Of a stretch of DNA of 64,000 nt, positions 6,359 through 29,636 are shown in pieces. The stretch lies in assembly GCF_010730355.1 (NCBI RefSeq), contig NZ_AP022576.1, positions 1,488,001 through 1,552,000 of the forward strand, read 5' to 3'. Made by a program: the position numbers and the translations under genes. The notes beneath the pieces were generated by a model. The model worked only from the letters and a program-made list of their open reading frames with translations. It made no database searches and was not told the origin of the DNA. Position 1 is the stretch's first letter. The number at the start of each line of letters is the position of its first letter. Source of the DNA: Mycobacterium florentinum. Lineage in GTDB: Bacteria > Actinomycetota > Actinomycetes > Mycobacteriales > Mycobacteriaceae.

Positions 6359-7180
6359 CTAGCAGGTGTCGTCCAGGTCGACCGGTACCGGGTCGCCCGG
6401 GCCGCCGGCTTCGGCGCGGGCCAGCAGCGCGACGATGTGATCGTCGAACGGCGCTGAGTAGGACACGTTCTCGGCGCATCCGCCGCGTTCCAGTCCACCG
6501 ATCAGCCCGACGACCGTGGTGCCGCTGACCCACGGCGCGCCGCTGGTGCCGCCAACGAGCCCCTGGCATGTCAGTGAGGGAAATCCCCCGTCGGTGACGG
6601 CCGTGCTGCCCTGGCAGCCGATCGGCGAGCCGCCCACGCCGCTCGGATACCCCACCACGGTCACGTGACTGCTGGGCGGCGGGGCCATACCCAGGGTCAG
6701 CGCCAGGCCGGCGCGTGCCTCCACCGAACCACCGTGGTCGCTGTTGACGCGCGCGATCGCGTAATCGGCATGCGGATCTTTGCTGGCAATCCAGCGCGGA
6801 TCCAGATAGACGTTGTCGGCCGTCCAGAGATCGGGTGGCGCCCCGTCACCGGACAAACCGGGCACGAACGTGATCTGAGCAGCTCCGGCCAGACAATGCG
6901 CGGCGGTCAGCACCAAGTTGCCGGCCGCGGAGTGCACCACCGAGCCCGTGCACACGTGCTGGGTGCTGCCGTCCAAGAAGATTGCTCCCACCCGACGATC
7001 CGGATCCACCGGGCCGGCAACCGCGCCCGGCTCGGGCTGGCTGAGACGCTGGACGGACTTGGTCGGTTTCGGTGTCTGCGTGCTGGTGGGCAGCGACACA
7101 TGCAGCACCGGACGCCCGCACGACGCCAGTAACGTCGCCAGGCCGACCAGTGGGCATAGCAGCAGCATCCGGACGCGCAT
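6359..7180 (-). CDS. Trypsin-like serine protease lipoprotein
   Basis: A 273-residue predicted lipoprotein with a chymotrypsin-fold protease domain. Residues 1-20 form a signal peptide ending in the lipobox LLAS-C21. A Pro/Thr/Ser linker (25-55) follows. The catalytic triad is His95 (LTAAHC), Asp139 (HADYA) and Ser213 (GGTSGAPW), with Cys pairs around His95 and before Ser213. Its substrate is unknown; it would act at the outer face of the membrane. I do not recall a counterpart between sthA and Rv2714 in M. tuberculosis, so it is probably lineage-specific. Confidence 0.82.
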   Translation of the reverse strand: MRVRMLLLCPLVGLATLLASCGRPVLHVSLPTSTQTPKPTKSVQRLSQPEPGAVAGPVDPDRRVGAIFLDGSTQHVCTGSVVHSAAGNLVLTAAHCLAGAAQITFVPGLSGDGAPPDLWTADNVYLDPRWIASKDPHADYAIARVNSDHGGSVEARAGLALTLGMAPPPSSHVTVVGYPSGVGGSPIGCQGSTAVTDGGFPSLTCQGLVGGTSGAPWVSGTTVVGLIGGLERGGCAENVSYSAPFDDHIVALLARAEAGGPGDPVPVDLDDTC

Positions 7181-7388
7181 CGGCTCCCATCATGCCCGAC
7201 CAGACGGGTGGAGGCGGAATTCGACGCTTCCCGCTGCGGCGGTAGATTTGCTGGCAGAGCCCGGTGGCGCCGGATATGTTCCATCCGGATTACGTTCGAG
7301 CGTCATCCCGTTTTAGGTACTGGTGCCCATTGATTCGGGGGACACTGGTTAGGGCACCCTGGAACAACCCCCGAGAGGAGGCAACCGG

Positions 7389-8363
7389 ATGTCTGACGAG
7401 CACAGCGCCGACGACTTGTACTACCAGCCAGGACAACCCGGCATGTACGAGCTGGAGTTCCCGGCTCCGCAGTTGGTGACATCGGACGGCCGCGGCCCCG
7501 TTCTGGTGCACGCCCTGGAGGGCTTCTCGGACGCCGGCCACGCGATACGGCTGGCCGCTGCCCACCTGAAATCCGCCCTGGACACCGAGCTGGTCGCGTC
7601 GTTCGCGATCGACGAACTGCTGGACTACCGCTCGCGCCGGCCGCTGATGACTTTCAAAACCGATCACTTCACCAGCTACGACGACCCGGAACTGAGCCTG
7701 TACGCGCTGCGCGACAGCGTCGGCACCCCATTTCTGCTGCTGGCCGGTATGGAGCCGGATCTCAAGTGGGAGCGTTTCATCACCGCGGTGCGCCTGCTGG
7801 CCGAGCGGCTCGGGGTGCGGCAGACCATCGGCCTGGGCACCGTTCCGATGGCCGTTCCGCACACCCGGCCCATCACCCTGACCGCGCACTCCACCAACCG
7901 CGAGTTGATCACCGACTTCCAGCCCTGGATTTCCGAGATCCAGGTCCCCGGCAGCGCGTCCAACCTGCTGGAATACCGGATGGGTCAGCACGGCCACGAG
8001 GTGGTCGGTTTCACCGTCCACGTCCCGCACTACCTCACTCAGACCGACTACCCCGCCGCCGCCCAGGCACTGCTCGAGCAGGTCGCCAAGACCGGGTCGC
8101 TGGAACTGCCGCTGACGGCGTTGACCGAGGCAGCGGCCGAGATTCGGGCCAAGATCGACGAGCAGGTCGAGGCGAGCGCCGAGGTGGCTCAAGTGGTGGC
8201 TGCCCTCGAGCGCCAGTACGATGCGTTCATCGACGCTCAGGAAAACAGGTCGTTACTAACACGCGACGAAGACCTTCCTAGCGGCGACGAGCTTGGTGCC
8301 GAGTTCGAGCGATTCCTGGCCCAACAGGCGGAGAAGAAGCGCGACGACGACGACCCGGCTTAA
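7389..8363 (+). CDS. PAC2-family protein (Rv2714-like)
   Basis: A 324-residue cytosolic protein of the PAC2 family (proteasome assembly chaperone fold), orthologous to Rv2714. The conserved start region has LVHALEGFSDAGHAIRLAA (about 40-58). A central G-L-G-T-V-P-M-A-V-P-H-T-R-P segment (about 150-165) is typical of actinobacterial PAC2 proteins. The C-terminal third is charged and helical. The biochemical role is unresolved; actinobacteria have a proteasome, but a chaperone role is not shown. A GAGAGGAGG Shine-Dalgarno sits before the ATG. The hydrolase gene follows after 35 nt, so the two are probably co-transcribed. Confidence 0.85.
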   Translation: MSDEHSADDLYYQPGQPGMYELEFPAPQLVTSDGRGPVLVHALEGFSDAGHAIRLAAAHLKSALDTELVASFAIDELLDYRSRRPLMTFKTDHFTSYDDPELSLYALRDSVGTPFLLLAGMEPDLKWERFITAVRLLAERLGVRQTIGLGTVPMAVPHTRPITLTAHSTNRELITDFQPWISEIQVPGSASNLLEYRMGQHGHEVVGFTVHVPHYLTQTDYPAAAQALLEQVAKTGSLELPLTALTEAAAEIRAKIDEQVEASAEVAQVVAALERQYDAFIDAQENRSLLTRDEDLPSGDELGAEFERFLAQQAEKKRDDDDPA

Positions 8364-8398
8364 ACGTCCGAAGGGGGCGCGACAACAAGGGTGGCGAG

Positions 8399-9430
8399 AT
8401 GACTGAGCGGAAGCGCAAGAGCAATCTTCGTCCCGTGCGGGAAGTGACCACCCCCCGCCTCGAATACCGCACCATCCACGGGTACAAACGAGCGTTCCGT
8501 ATCGCCGGCTCCGGGCCGGCGATCCTGTTGATCCACGGCATCGGCGACAACTCCACGACCTGGAATACCGTGCAGGCCAAGCTCGCTCAGCGGTTCACGG
8601 TGATCGCCCCCGATCTGCTGGGACACGGGCAGTCCGACAAACCGCGCGCCGACTACTCGGTCGCGGGCTACGCCAACGGGATGCGCGACCTGCTGTCGGT
8701 GCTCGACATCGAGCGCGTGACCATCGTCGGGCATTCGCTCGGCGGCGGGGTGGCGATGCAATTCGCCTACCAATTCCCACATCTGGTCGAGCGGCTCATC
8801 CTGGTCGCCGCGGGCGGCGTCACCAAGGACGTCAACGTCGCCTTCCGGTTGGCCTCGCTGCCGATCGGGACGGAGGCGTTGGCGCTGTTGCGGTTGCCCC
8901 TGGTGCTACCGGCGGTCCAGCTGGCGGGACGGCTCGCGGGCCTGGCGATCGGATCGACCGGGTTGGGCCGCGACCTGCCGAACGTGCTGCGCATCCTGGA
9001 CGACTTGCCGGAGCCGACGGCGTCATCGGCGTTCAGCCGGACACTGCGGGCCGTGGTGGACTGGCGCGGGCAGATCGTCACCTTCCTGGATCGATGTTAT
9101 CTGACCGAGGCCATCCCGGTGCAGATCGTCTGGGGCACCAAGGATGTGGTGGTTCCGGTGCGCCACGCGTGGATGGCACACGCCGCGATGCCCGGTTCCC
9201 GCCTGGAGATCTTCCAGGGCTCCGGGCATTTTCCGTTCCACGAAGACCCGGCCCGCTTCATCGACGTCGTCCAGCGCTTCATCGACACCACCGCACCCGC
9301 CGAATACGACCAGGCGGCGCTTCGCGGGTTGTTGCGCACCGGCAGGGCCGAGGCCGCGGTCACGGGCTCGGCCGACACGCGCGTCGCGGTGCTCAACGCG
9401 ATGGGCTCCGACGAGCGCAGCGCGACTTAG
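8399..9430 (+). CDS. Alpha/beta-hydrolase (Rv2715-like)
   Basis: A 343-residue alpha/beta-hydrolase. The oxyanion HG motif is LLIHGIGDN (43-51) and the nucleophile elbow is GHSLGG with Ser113. Probable acid Asp249 lies in WGTKDVVVP, and His277 in GSGHFPFHEDP completes the triad. A cap insertion lies between about 140 and 230. Relatives are annotated as epoxide hydrolases, esterases or C-C hydrolases; Ser rather than Asp as nucleophile argues for an esterase/lipase-type or C-C bond hydrolase. The substrate is unknown. It follows the PAC2 gene and precedes the PhzF gene on the same strand. Confidence 0.85.
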   Translation: MTERKRKSNLRPVREVTTPRLEYRTIHGYKRAFRIAGSGPAILLIHGIGDNSTTWNTVQAKLAQRFTVIAPDLLGHGQSDKPRADYSVAGYANGMRDLLSVLDIERVTIVGHSLGGGVAMQFAYQFPHLVERLILVAAGGVTKDVNVAFRLASLPIGTEALALLRLPLVLPAVQLAGRLAGLAIGSTGLGRDLPNVLRILDDLPEPTASSAFSRTLRAVVDWRGQIVTFLDRCYLTEAIPVQIVWGTKDVVVPVRHAWMAHAAMPGSRLEIFQGSGHFPFHEDPARFIDVVQRFIDTTAPAEYDQAALRGLLRTGRAEAAVTGSADTRVAVLNAMGSDERSAT

Positions 9431-9464
9431 ACAATTGATTTGACCCGGCCCGTACAGTCGGGCC

Positions 9465-10151
9465 ATGGGTATCGACGTGACGGTGTTGCGGGTCTTCACC
9501 GACCAAGACGGCAAATTCGGTAATCCCCTGGGCGTCGTCGACGCCGCCGCGATCGCTCCCGCCGATCGCCAGCGCCTGGCCACCCAATTGGGTTACAGCG
9601 AAACGGTATTCATCGATCTTCCGGCGGCCGGCGCAACCACCGCGCATGCCACGATCTACACCCCGCGCACGGATCTCCCGTTCGCCGGCCATCCCACCGT
9701 CGGGGCGTCGTGGTGGCTGCGCACGAACGGCACGCCGATCAACACGCTGGCGGTGCCGGCCGGCGTCGTGCGGGTGCACTACGACGGCGACCTGGTCGGC
9801 GTCACCGCCCGCTCGGAATGGGGTCCCGAGTACGCGATGCACGAATTCGATTCAGTCGAACAGCTTCTCGCGGCCGACCCGGCCGAGTTTCCCGACGACG
9901 CCGCGCACTACCTGTGGACCTGGATCGACCAGGCCGCCGGCTCGTTGCGCTCCCGGACGTTCGTCGCGAATCTGGGTGTGCCCGAAGACGAAGCGACCGG
10001 CTCGGCCGCGCTGCGGATTACCGACCATCTCAGCCGCGACCTGAGCATCACCCAGGGCAAGGGATCGAGGCTGGAAACCGTCTGGAGCCCCGAGGGCTGG
10101 GTTCGCGTCGCCGGGCGCGTCGTCAACGACGGTGTGACACAAGTCGACTGA
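9465..10151 (+). CDS. PhzF-family isomerase-like protein (Rv2716-like)
   Basis: A 228-residue protein of the PhzF/diaminopimelate-epimerase fold. Conserved features are F-G-N-P-L-G-V-V (18-25), the catalytic Glu46 in YSETVF, PFAGHP (about 74-79) and [12 protein letters not shown] in the second half. At 228 residues it is shorter than typical PhzF proteins (about 280), mainly through a reduced second lobe, but the active-site Glu and glycine loops are intact. It probably isomerises a small metabolite; the substrate is not predictable. The stop is 10 nt from the stop of the convergent nitrobindin gene. Confidence 0.85.
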
Positions 10152-28725: not shown

Positions 28726-28741
28726 ACGAACACCTGTTCGA
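28726..28741 (-). promoter_or_regulatory. LexA (SOS) box of recA
   Basis: Minus strand TCGAACAGGTGTTCGT matches TCGAAC-N4-GTTCGA with a mismatch only at the last base, and is the expected recA SOS box position, about 105 nt upstream of the start. A further TTCGAC half-site lies next to it. It is also about 55 nt upstream of the divergent B12 riboswitch. Confidence 0.85.
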
Positions 28742-28795
28742 TTCAAGTTCGACACGCCGCGGGCGTTTCGTGTGGCAACATCAGCTACCGACAGG

Positions 28796-28907
28796 GCGCC
28801 GACGGCCCGCATGAACCTTGAGGAAACCGGTGCGAATCCGGTGCGGTCCCGCCACTGTGATCGGGCACATCTTCTCCACCCGAGAGCCAGATACTCACCG
28901 TCGGCGC
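28796..28907 (+). ncRNA. Cobalamin riboswitch
   Basis: A 10-bp perfect closing stem (GCGCCGACGG at 28796-28805, CCGTCGGCGC at 28898-28907) encloses the conserved core of cobalamin riboswitches. In order, the core has GAGGAAACCGGTGCGAATC, the GCGGTCCCGCCACTGTGA segment carrying the B12-box GCCACTG, a variable stem and GAGCCAGATACT. It lies 42 nt upstream of the FhuF-like gene on the same strand. By analogy, cobalamin binding should lower expression of that gene. Confidence 0.9.
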
Positions 28908-28921
28908 TTCCTCACTAGACG

Positions 28922-28949
28922 CTGGGGCGGATCTCCCCAGAGAGGCTGG
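28922..28949 (+). promoter_or_regulatory. Candidate riboswitch expression platform (RBS hairpins)
   Basis: Two mutually exclusive hairpins share CCAG at 28937-28940. CTGGGG (28922-28927) can pair with CCCCAG (28935-28940), leaving the AGAGG Shine-Dalgarno free. Alternatively CCAG (28937-28940) can pair with CTGG (28946-28949), enclosing AGAGG (28941-28945) immediately before the ATG at 28950. This suits translational control by the riboswitch; the switching model is inference. Confidence 0.5.
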
Positions 28950-29636
28950 ATGCGCCGCATGGATATCTCCGGCGAGCTTGCCGAAATATCTTCCTACAGG
29001 GGGTTTTTCGCGCTGACCGTGGGCGGCGCCGCGGCAGGATGGCACCCGGTCCGCCAGGACTACGCCGACGGCTTTGCCGGTTTGATCGACACCACCGCAA
29101 AGCGTTACAACACGACGGACCTGCGGATCGGCGCCTCGCTGGTTCACCTCGGCCACGCCACCCGGCTGTGGTCCCCGGTGCTGGCCTGCGCGTTGGCCCA
29201 CGGCGTCGTCCCGGACCTGCAAGACCTGCAACGTGCCGACGATGGGGCGCAGCTGCGCCTGCCCGAGCCCATCGGAGAGCAGGTCGCGCACACCTCGGCG
29301 GAGTTGTTGTATCGCCTTGTGGTGCAACACCATATGCAGCCGTTCGCGGCCGGCCTGCAGGTCAAACTGGCGCCCGCCCTGCTGGCGGGCAACATCGCGT
29401 CGGCGCTCGTCGGCGCGTCACGGGCGCTGCTCGCGGCCCGGCCTGACCTGCGCGCGCGGATCGTCGAGAGCACCGAATCGCTGCTGAACACCGGCGTGCT
29501 GTCCGGGTCCGGCGCCATCACCGGCTCACATCTGGGGTTCAAGCGCGACAGCTGCTGCCTGTTCTATCGCCTTCCCGGACGATCGGTGTGCGGCGACTGC
29601 GTATTTCGCCAGGCGCCCCGGTCCGGCCGGCGTTGA
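28950..29636 (+). CDS. FhuF-like [2Fe-2S] protein under cobalamin riboswitch control
   Basis: A 228-residue soluble protein whose C-terminus has the FhuF [2Fe-2S] ligand pattern Cys202-Cys203-x10-Cys214-x2-Cys217. The rest is helical with W-S-P-V (74-77) and a G-N-I-A-S-A-L segment (148-154) as in FhuF-like siderophore-iron reductases. FhuF proteins reduce ferric siderophores; here the upstream B12 riboswitch argues for a corrinoid-related role, such as cob(III)/cob(II)alamin reduction, which is inference. The ATG at 28950 has AGAGG at the right distance; the open frame reaching into the riboswitch is not coding. I do not recall an M. tuberculosis counterpart here. Confidence 0.85.
   Translation: MRRMDISGELAEISSYRGFFALTVGGAAAGWHPVRQDYADGFAGLIDTTAKRYNTTDLRIGASLVHLGHATRLWSPVLACALAHGVVPDLQDLQRADDGAQLRLPEPIGEQVAHTSAELLYRLVVQHHMQPFAAGLQVKLAPALLAGNIASALVGASRALLAARPDLRARIVESTESLLNTGVLSGSGAITGSHLGFKRDSCCLFYRLPGRSVCGDCVFRQAPRSGRR

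Follow-up and report, generated by a model that had tools for sequence, protein, structure and literature searches.

The FhuF-like gene that adjoins recA in Mycobacterium florentinum is, judging by the cobalamin riboswitch in its leader, a member of the B12 regulon, and the encoded protein very probably handles corrinoids. We propose, with a probability of about 0.6, that a FhuF-family [2Fe-2S] protein has been taken over from ferric-siderophore reduction for the assimilation of corrinoids, in which it would reduce the imported Co(III) corrinoid. The first-pass annotation had suggested a corrinoid rather than a siderophore role, and that suggestion was strongly supported, if not settled, by relatives fused to importer ATPases, by importer operons led by cobalamin riboswitches and by neighbouring CbtA and CobO genes.

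The leader and the gene beside recA

The window is the whole stretch of DNA that was analysed, 64 kb of the M. florentinum genome (G000, one contig, 6,219,859 bases), in which the plus-strand riboswitch and FhuF-like gene adjoin recA (minus strand, from 27579). The locus contains the following features:

28726..28741, + strand: SOS-box-like palindrome ACGAACACCTGTTCGA, with one mismatch to TCGAACNNNNGTTCGA, which we take to be the SOS-box motif; between the divergent recA and FhuF-like gene
28770..28781, + strand: putative extended -10 promoter element GTGTGGCAACAT
28786..28916, + strand: cobalamin riboswitch aptamer, 131 nt (RF00174)
28796..28805, + strand: 5′ strand of the P1 stem, GCGCCGACGG, pairing with 28898-28907
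28898..28907, + strand: 3′ strand of the P1 stem, CCGTCGGCGC, pairing with 28796-28805
28910..28913, + strand: CCUC, possible anti-Shine-Dalgarno strand, pairing with GAGG in 87.9% of cells
28922..28940, + strand: P13-like hairpin CUGGGG-CCCCAG, the expected expression platform, with 94.4% of cells paired
28940..28945, + strand: GAGAGG, probable Shine-Dalgarno sequence adjoining the hairpin, in 12 of the 15 rows of alignment A3
28959..29636, + strand: gene for the FhuF-like, predicted [2Fe-2S] protein, 225 aa (PF11575, predicted model)
29553..29600, + strand: C-C-x10-C-x2-C motif of candidate cluster ligands (C199, C200, C211 and C214; 94-row alignment)

A cobalamin riboswitch had been read in this leader from a 10-bp closing stem, a GCCACTG B12-box core and a GAGCCAGATACT element. 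The two elements were both found and the stem is exact. The covariance-model scan bore out the assignment, with RF00174 matching the plus strand over model positions 1-189 at 53.5 bits against a cut-off of 31.5 (E 1.7e-10). This was the sole gathering-level Rfam match in the window, and a whole-genome RF00174 search returned the same site. The spacing of 42 nt between riboswitch and gene given in the first-pass annotation holds for the second of two in-frame ATGs (28950 and 28959), and the reading from 28959 begins with MDIS as the orthologues do.

Across 15 orthologous leaders, standard pairs filled 95.9% of the cells of five helices, compared to 45-51% when the partner strand was slid, and P1 was paired in 98% of cells. 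Changes on both sides were seen in three pairs, two in P1 and one in P13. None of 500 shuffles attained the covariation score, but 82 of them had at least as many both-sided pairs, so the covariation is modest. The folding energy of the leader was no better than that of shuffled sequences (z 0.13), and in the minimum-energy fold P1 itself is absent and its 3′ strand pairs around the start codon. The case for the predicted riboswitch rests on the covariance-model match and on conservation, not on folding energy. A register for an L5-L13 kissing loop was dropped because one of its four pairs was non-standard.

Two terminator-like sites were found near the leader where 0.3 were expected. Both (28747-28764 and 28990-29003) lie outside the expected platform, so control by an intrinsic terminator is disfavoured and translational control is preferred. 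When B12 is scarce, the GAGAGG Shine-Dalgarno sequence would be free and the protein would be made; when B12 is plentiful, the aptamer would close, the Shine-Dalgarno sequence would be hidden and translation would fall. The P13 hairpin and the CCUC that follows P1 would assist in the hiding. The direction of this regulation is presumed from the known behaviour of the riboswitch class.

A sigma-70 consensus scan found no promoter at the leader. A loose form of the putative -10 element occurs upstream in 16 of the 26 recA-locus orthologues of the genus sample, and nine of these 16 belong to the 17 orthologues that lack a full-scoring riboswitch. The SOS-box-like palindrome is a candidate element that might act on both recA and the FhuF-like gene.

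The only Pfam match of the protein is PF11575, FhuF_C, at 29.9 bits (gathering cut-off 20.5), spanning residues 199-218 of the 228-aa reading from 28950. In an alignment of 94 rows, R196, C199, C200, Y203, C211 and C214 (225-aa numbering) are invariant; the Cys-Cys-x10-Cys-x2-Cys ligand set that had been noticed at the C-terminus is therefore not only present but kept in every row, and its four cysteines are the predicted ligands of a [2Fe-2S] cluster. The predicted structure (pLDDT 94.4) had E. coli FhuF (PDB 7qp5) as its best match, obtained with VIA-align and with a profile; Foldseek against the PDB returned nothing at E 0.001, and phmmer with the single protein gave no match. The FhuF fold is thus seen in the predicted model, and the four-cysteine motif in the alignment. 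The closest named relative is in Mycobacterium sp. Aquia_213 (93% identity), followed by homologues in M. ahvazicum, M. triplex and M. genavense (87-91%). Relatives currently carry names such as 'iron reductase' and '(2Fe-2S)-binding protein'.

Riboswitches, importers and fusions among relatives

Within the genus, a homologue was found at E 1e-6 in 62 of 98 genomes, and the remaining 36 gave none at that threshold. In all 26 loci of the recA type (L016-L041) recA adjoins the FhuF-like gene. A riboswitch search with stricter filters placed, among the matches listed, nine of the 26 above the Rfam cut-off (L016-L020, L023, L024, L026 and L029). Two others have a decayed riboswitch (L022 at 23.8 bits, L025 by eye), two have the footprint of a deleted aptamer (L021 and L027), and in 13 the leader is short and has no aptamer (L028 and L030-L041). 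In a separate set of named species the riboswitch was present in eight of ten, the exceptions being L011, with a deletion footprint, and L013, with a decayed switch and an apparently interrupted frame. In L011, L021 and L027 the 5′ strand of P1 persists in the footprint and the gene is kept; the riboswitch appears to have been deleted in place. The first-pass annotation would have been contradicted by a riboswitch missing from all orthologues. This was not the case, as some carry one; 17 of the 26 recA-locus orthologues are without a full-scoring one. As read from these leaders, B12 control is not universal at the recA locus and is dispensable in many species that retain the gene.

More distant members of the genus place the FhuF-like domain in another setting. 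In 11 loci (L046-L056) it is the C-terminal domain of a protein that begins as an ABC ATPase. A single 575-residue frame in L046 matches both ABC_tran and FhuF_C in Pfam, and genes for a Peripla_BP_2 binding protein and a FecCD permease precede it. A same-strand RF00174 riboswitch leads the operon in eight of these 11 loci (L046-L051, L053 and L055). Unfused arrangements also occur: L058 and L059 have the order riboswitch, binding protein, FecCD, ATPase and separate FhuF-like gene; L061 has riboswitch, binding protein, FhuF-like gene, FecCD and ATPase; and in L063 and L064 the riboswitch directly precedes a lone FhuF-like gene. Identification of the operon genes by Pfam covers L046, L059 and L061.

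Several other genes lie close to these operons. A PPE gene with its own upstream cobalamin riboswitch was found near the importer-FhuF operon in L046-L050, L052 and L054 (in L046, a PPE-PPW gene at 7573-9306 and the riboswitch at 9382-9564), an arrangement that would suit a PPE2-type role in corrinoid uptake. Also in L046, a same-strand DUF7676 gene (6784-7362) comes after the fusion gene and may be part of the corrinoid operon. In genome G049, a short second FhuF-like fragment (C25:260183-260344), possibly a decayed copy, lies about 30 kb from the fused gene (L047, C25:224000-237000).

At the family level, 52 of 201 genomes, own genus included, had a match at E 1e-10. We examined 40 of the 47 rows from outside the genus, with up to 4.8 kb upstream, leaving out two pieces of G186, G217, G130, G194, G261 and the second G166 hit (inside L073). 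A same-strand B12 riboswitch was present upstream in 22 of the 40 loci (21 RF00174 and one AdoCbl-II). The riboswitch counts of the genomes would predict 0.11, on an estimate that takes no account of kinship. Eighteen of the 22 have genes for the binding protein, FecCD and ATPase in order, followed by the FhuF-like part. In L102 the order FecCD, ATPase is kept and the binding protein alone was undetected, in L100 the FhuF-like gene is second in a riboswitch-led operon, in L101 the riboswitch occurs with CbtA, and in L103 it occurs with the FhuF-like gene alone. The other 18 loci have no same-strand riboswitch within the upstream sequence of up to 4.8 kb, and two of them have one on the opposite strand, before CbtA in L098 and before FecCD-ATPase-binding protein genes in L105. 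Five of the 18, all of a single genus (L072, L074, L075, L076 and L081), have a lone FhuF-like gene and other members of that genus have the fusion, which suggests that the importer genes were lost and the FhuF part survived. A tRNA gene lies near four of the five, as it does near the fused loci L070 and L071.

Fusion to an ABC ATPase was found in 18 of the 54 loci checked by frame, 11 in the genus and seven outside it; L073, whose best hit is a second copy, is not among the 18, and its coordinates put the ATPase and the FhuF-like domain in-frame. The fused position would suit a gate, and the protein could act as a non-enzymatic corrinoid chaperone or a redox sensor that gates the importer. 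That is the least likely of the alternatives that we weighed, because in M. florentinum the protein stands alone in a genome with no FecCD importer and because R196, Y203 and the four cysteines do not vary in the alignment.

In the class set, 67 of 197 genomes had a homologue at E 1e-8, and 20 loci were chosen to spread over families. The riboswitch is directly upstream of the FhuF-like gene in L109 and L111 and nearby in L125 and L126. CbtA adjoins the gene in L120, L122, L123 and L128, and in L127 the gene is divergent from a chelatase-like gene and CobO/BtuR. In the part of the neighbours that was scanned, the other 11 loci had no riboswitch, CbtA or cob gene; ABC-transporter pieces lie near three of these, namely L116 (of the oligopeptide type by Pfam), L117, and L118 (with FecCD and ATPase). 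A cation-efflux transporter and an ArsR-type regulator stand beside the FhuF-like gene in L113 (605-1950, by Pfam) and L114 (553-1917, by resemblance), which hints at some connection with metals apart from B12. Contig ends truncate L069, L070, L084, L101 and L112.

The CbtA neighbours (L098, L101, L120, L122, L123 and L128) and the chelatase-like gene beside L127 could also mean that a Co(III) complex is what the protein reduces, or that it otherwise aids cobalt assimilation, as with CbtA, before cobalt is inserted into the ring, and the cbtBA pair of M. florentinum is likewise linked to a riboswitch. We consider this improbable, since an intact corrinoid as cargo better explains why the domain is fused to ATPases of FecCD-type importers under B12 riboswitches, and the function of CbtA is itself a prediction.

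In a tree of the family, B12-linked members are scattered over several branches. The fork that holds the recA-locus clade includes L042, L044 and L059, each with an upstream riboswitch and L059 in an importer operon, and also L045, L057 and L060, in which no riboswitch was found. The placement of L108 and of the L102-L107 group is unsure, and the label of L043 reflects an upstream sequence that looks ATPase-like by eye, with no riboswitch above E 1 in its 1.5-kb flank. The labels serve solely to show the spread of B12 contexts.

Candidate corrinoid uptake genes of M. florentinum and the proposed reaction

The M. florentinum genome has three RF00174 matches, before the FhuF-like gene, before metE (TIGR01371, 1100 bits versus 930) and before cbtB-cbtA (PF09489 and PF09490; TIGR02458, for CbtA, stayed under its cut-off). 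It has a single FhuF_C gene and a single PduO-type adenosyltransferase. No match to FecCD (PF01032) was found in the genome at E 0.001, with the control search positive in 13 of 14 genomes, and none to IucA/IucC, with the control positive in two of 14. Of the BtuFCD set of binding protein, FecCD permease and ATPase, the genome thus lacks the permease. Two ABC transporters match PDB 6tqe, which we take to be Rv1819c, along their length (E 0 and 3e-270), and both match the human lysosomal cobalamin transporter ABCD4 more weakly. By these matches, a candidate B12 importer and an adenosyltransferase are present. M. tuberculosis imports B12 via Rv1819c and has no BtuFCD, according to PMC3603451.

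These gene contents bear on what the protein reduces. Pfam is blind to the difference between B12 and siderophores as cargo, FecCD-type importers carry siderophores too, and we infer the B12 cargo of the relatives' importers from their riboswitches. An ordinary ferric-siderophore reductase whose B12 control is incidental would account for the fold and the motif, which are those of FhuF, and for its company with FecCD systems. This explanation is very unlikely. A FecCD-imported ferric siderophore is unavailable as substrate in a genome without FecCD, IucA/IucC matches are missing as well, the score for the siderophore-iron reductase FhuF equivalog TIGR03951 is far under its cut-off (21.7 versus 63.85 bits), and B12-riboswitch contexts recur among the relatives.

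Under the preferred reading of a corrinoid reductase, electrons from the cluster would pass to the Co(III) of imported cyano-, hydroxo- or alkyl-cobalamin or cobinamide to give cob(II). This would free the upper ligand, keep the corrinoid inside the cell and leave it ready for the PduO-type adenosyltransferase. In the relatives, the protein would act directly at a FecCD-type (BtuFCD-like) importer under riboswitch control, often within the same polypeptide as the importer's ATPase, and in M. florentinum, whose genome is without a FecCD permease, it would act behind the Rv1819c-type importer. The riboswitch match, cluster motif, predicted fold, operons, fusions and lack of a FecCD match are read from the sequences; the reaction on Co(III) and its supply with electrons by a donor are proposed on that basis.

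Alternatively, the protein may be an electron-transfer partner of the adenosyltransferase, supplying the PduO-type enzyme with the electron for its cob(II)-to-cob(I) step, and no general cob(III) reductase. The presence of that enzyme in the genome and the CobO/BtuR gene beside L127 are in line with this idea, which we find unlikely because the recurrent gene partner is the importer instead. A potential near -0.36 V is moreover low enough for cob(III) to cob(II) and high for cob(I), so that if the protein resembles E. coli FhuF, the first reduction would be easy and the second would not. The potential given for E. coli FhuF is -0.36 +/- 0.09 V at pH 7.4 (PMC8068687).

Several observations were counted against a corrinoid reductase. 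These are the 17 of 26 recA loci without a full switch, the genomes without a homologue and the loci without a B12 context. M. tuberculosis presumably has only a fragment of the FhuF-like gene beside recA. Despite this, it uses exogenous B12 (PMC3603451), and mycobacteria probably convert cyanocobalamin without specific enzymes, a view put forward in PMC8088520 that was weighed on the same side.

A wider proposal, which we hold only tentatively and at somewhat less than even odds, is that these proteins form an actinobacterial class of dedicated corrinoid reductases that decyanate or dealkylate B12 as it leaves the importer. They would be functional counterparts of human CblC without its ancestry, and in several lineages they would be welded to the importer ATPase so that transport and reductive trapping become one machine.

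Relation to earlier work and to known systems

The FhuF fold and the RF00174 riboswitch class are already known. Reported riboswitch targets in mycobacteria include metE, PPE2-cobQ-cobU and rpfB (PMC4428469, PMC12713380 and PMC8192938), and the available portions of these three papers do not name the FhuF-like gene as a target. The word 'FhuF' is missing from the main text of PMC3766115, PMC10924821 and PMC2667541, and 'iron reductase' from that of PMC4428469, PMC10924821, PMC11260477 and PMC3766115; PMC7689651 mentions FhuF and a cobalamin riboswitch in unrelated places. A literature search on Rv2737A found nothing. As far as these searches go, a corrinoid function of the FhuF-like protein is not in print, though an earlier regulon table might list the gene.

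A figure legend in a 2025 review of M. tuberculosis cobamides lists the decyanation steps as undetermined (PMC12713380). The FhuF-like protein is a concrete and testable candidate for decyanation in non-tuberculous mycobacteria and other actinobacteria, and a dedicated corrinoid reductase would, if real, fill the decyanation or reduction step in the species that have the gene. Genes at present annotated as 'iron reductase' or '(2Fe-2S)-binding protein' may then encode corrinoid rather than siderophore proteins. The results also suggest that, together with the FecCD importers common to both cargoes, a reductase family of the siderophore type was drawn into cobalt chemistry.

BtuM is a membrane protein with a cysteine ligand, and to our knowledge neither BtuM nor MMACHC carries an iron-sulfur cluster. 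Both are decyanating proteins that couple the chemical processing of B12 to uptake (BtuM, PMC6072759; MMACHC/CblC, PMC3603451), as is proposed here. Compared to E. coli FhuF (PDB 7qp5; PF11575/TIGR03951), the M. florentinum protein has 14% identity and the same C-C-x10-C-x2-C motif (PMC8068687). It differs in having a B12 riboswitch upstream of its gene and relatives in importer operons under B12 riboswitches, in falling below the TIGR03951 cut-off, and in belonging to a genome without FecCD or IucA/IucC. The leader switch is of the same Rfam family, RF00174, as the mycobacterial metE and PPE2 switches, but its aptamer is shorter than that of the metE riboswitch in the same genome (131 versus 214 nt). 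The relatives' operons resemble BtuFCD in that a B12 riboswitch leads Peripla_BP_2, FecCD and ABC_tran genes. In contrast to BtuFCD, they add a FhuF-like domain or gene, and M. florentinum has that added part without the FecCD permease.
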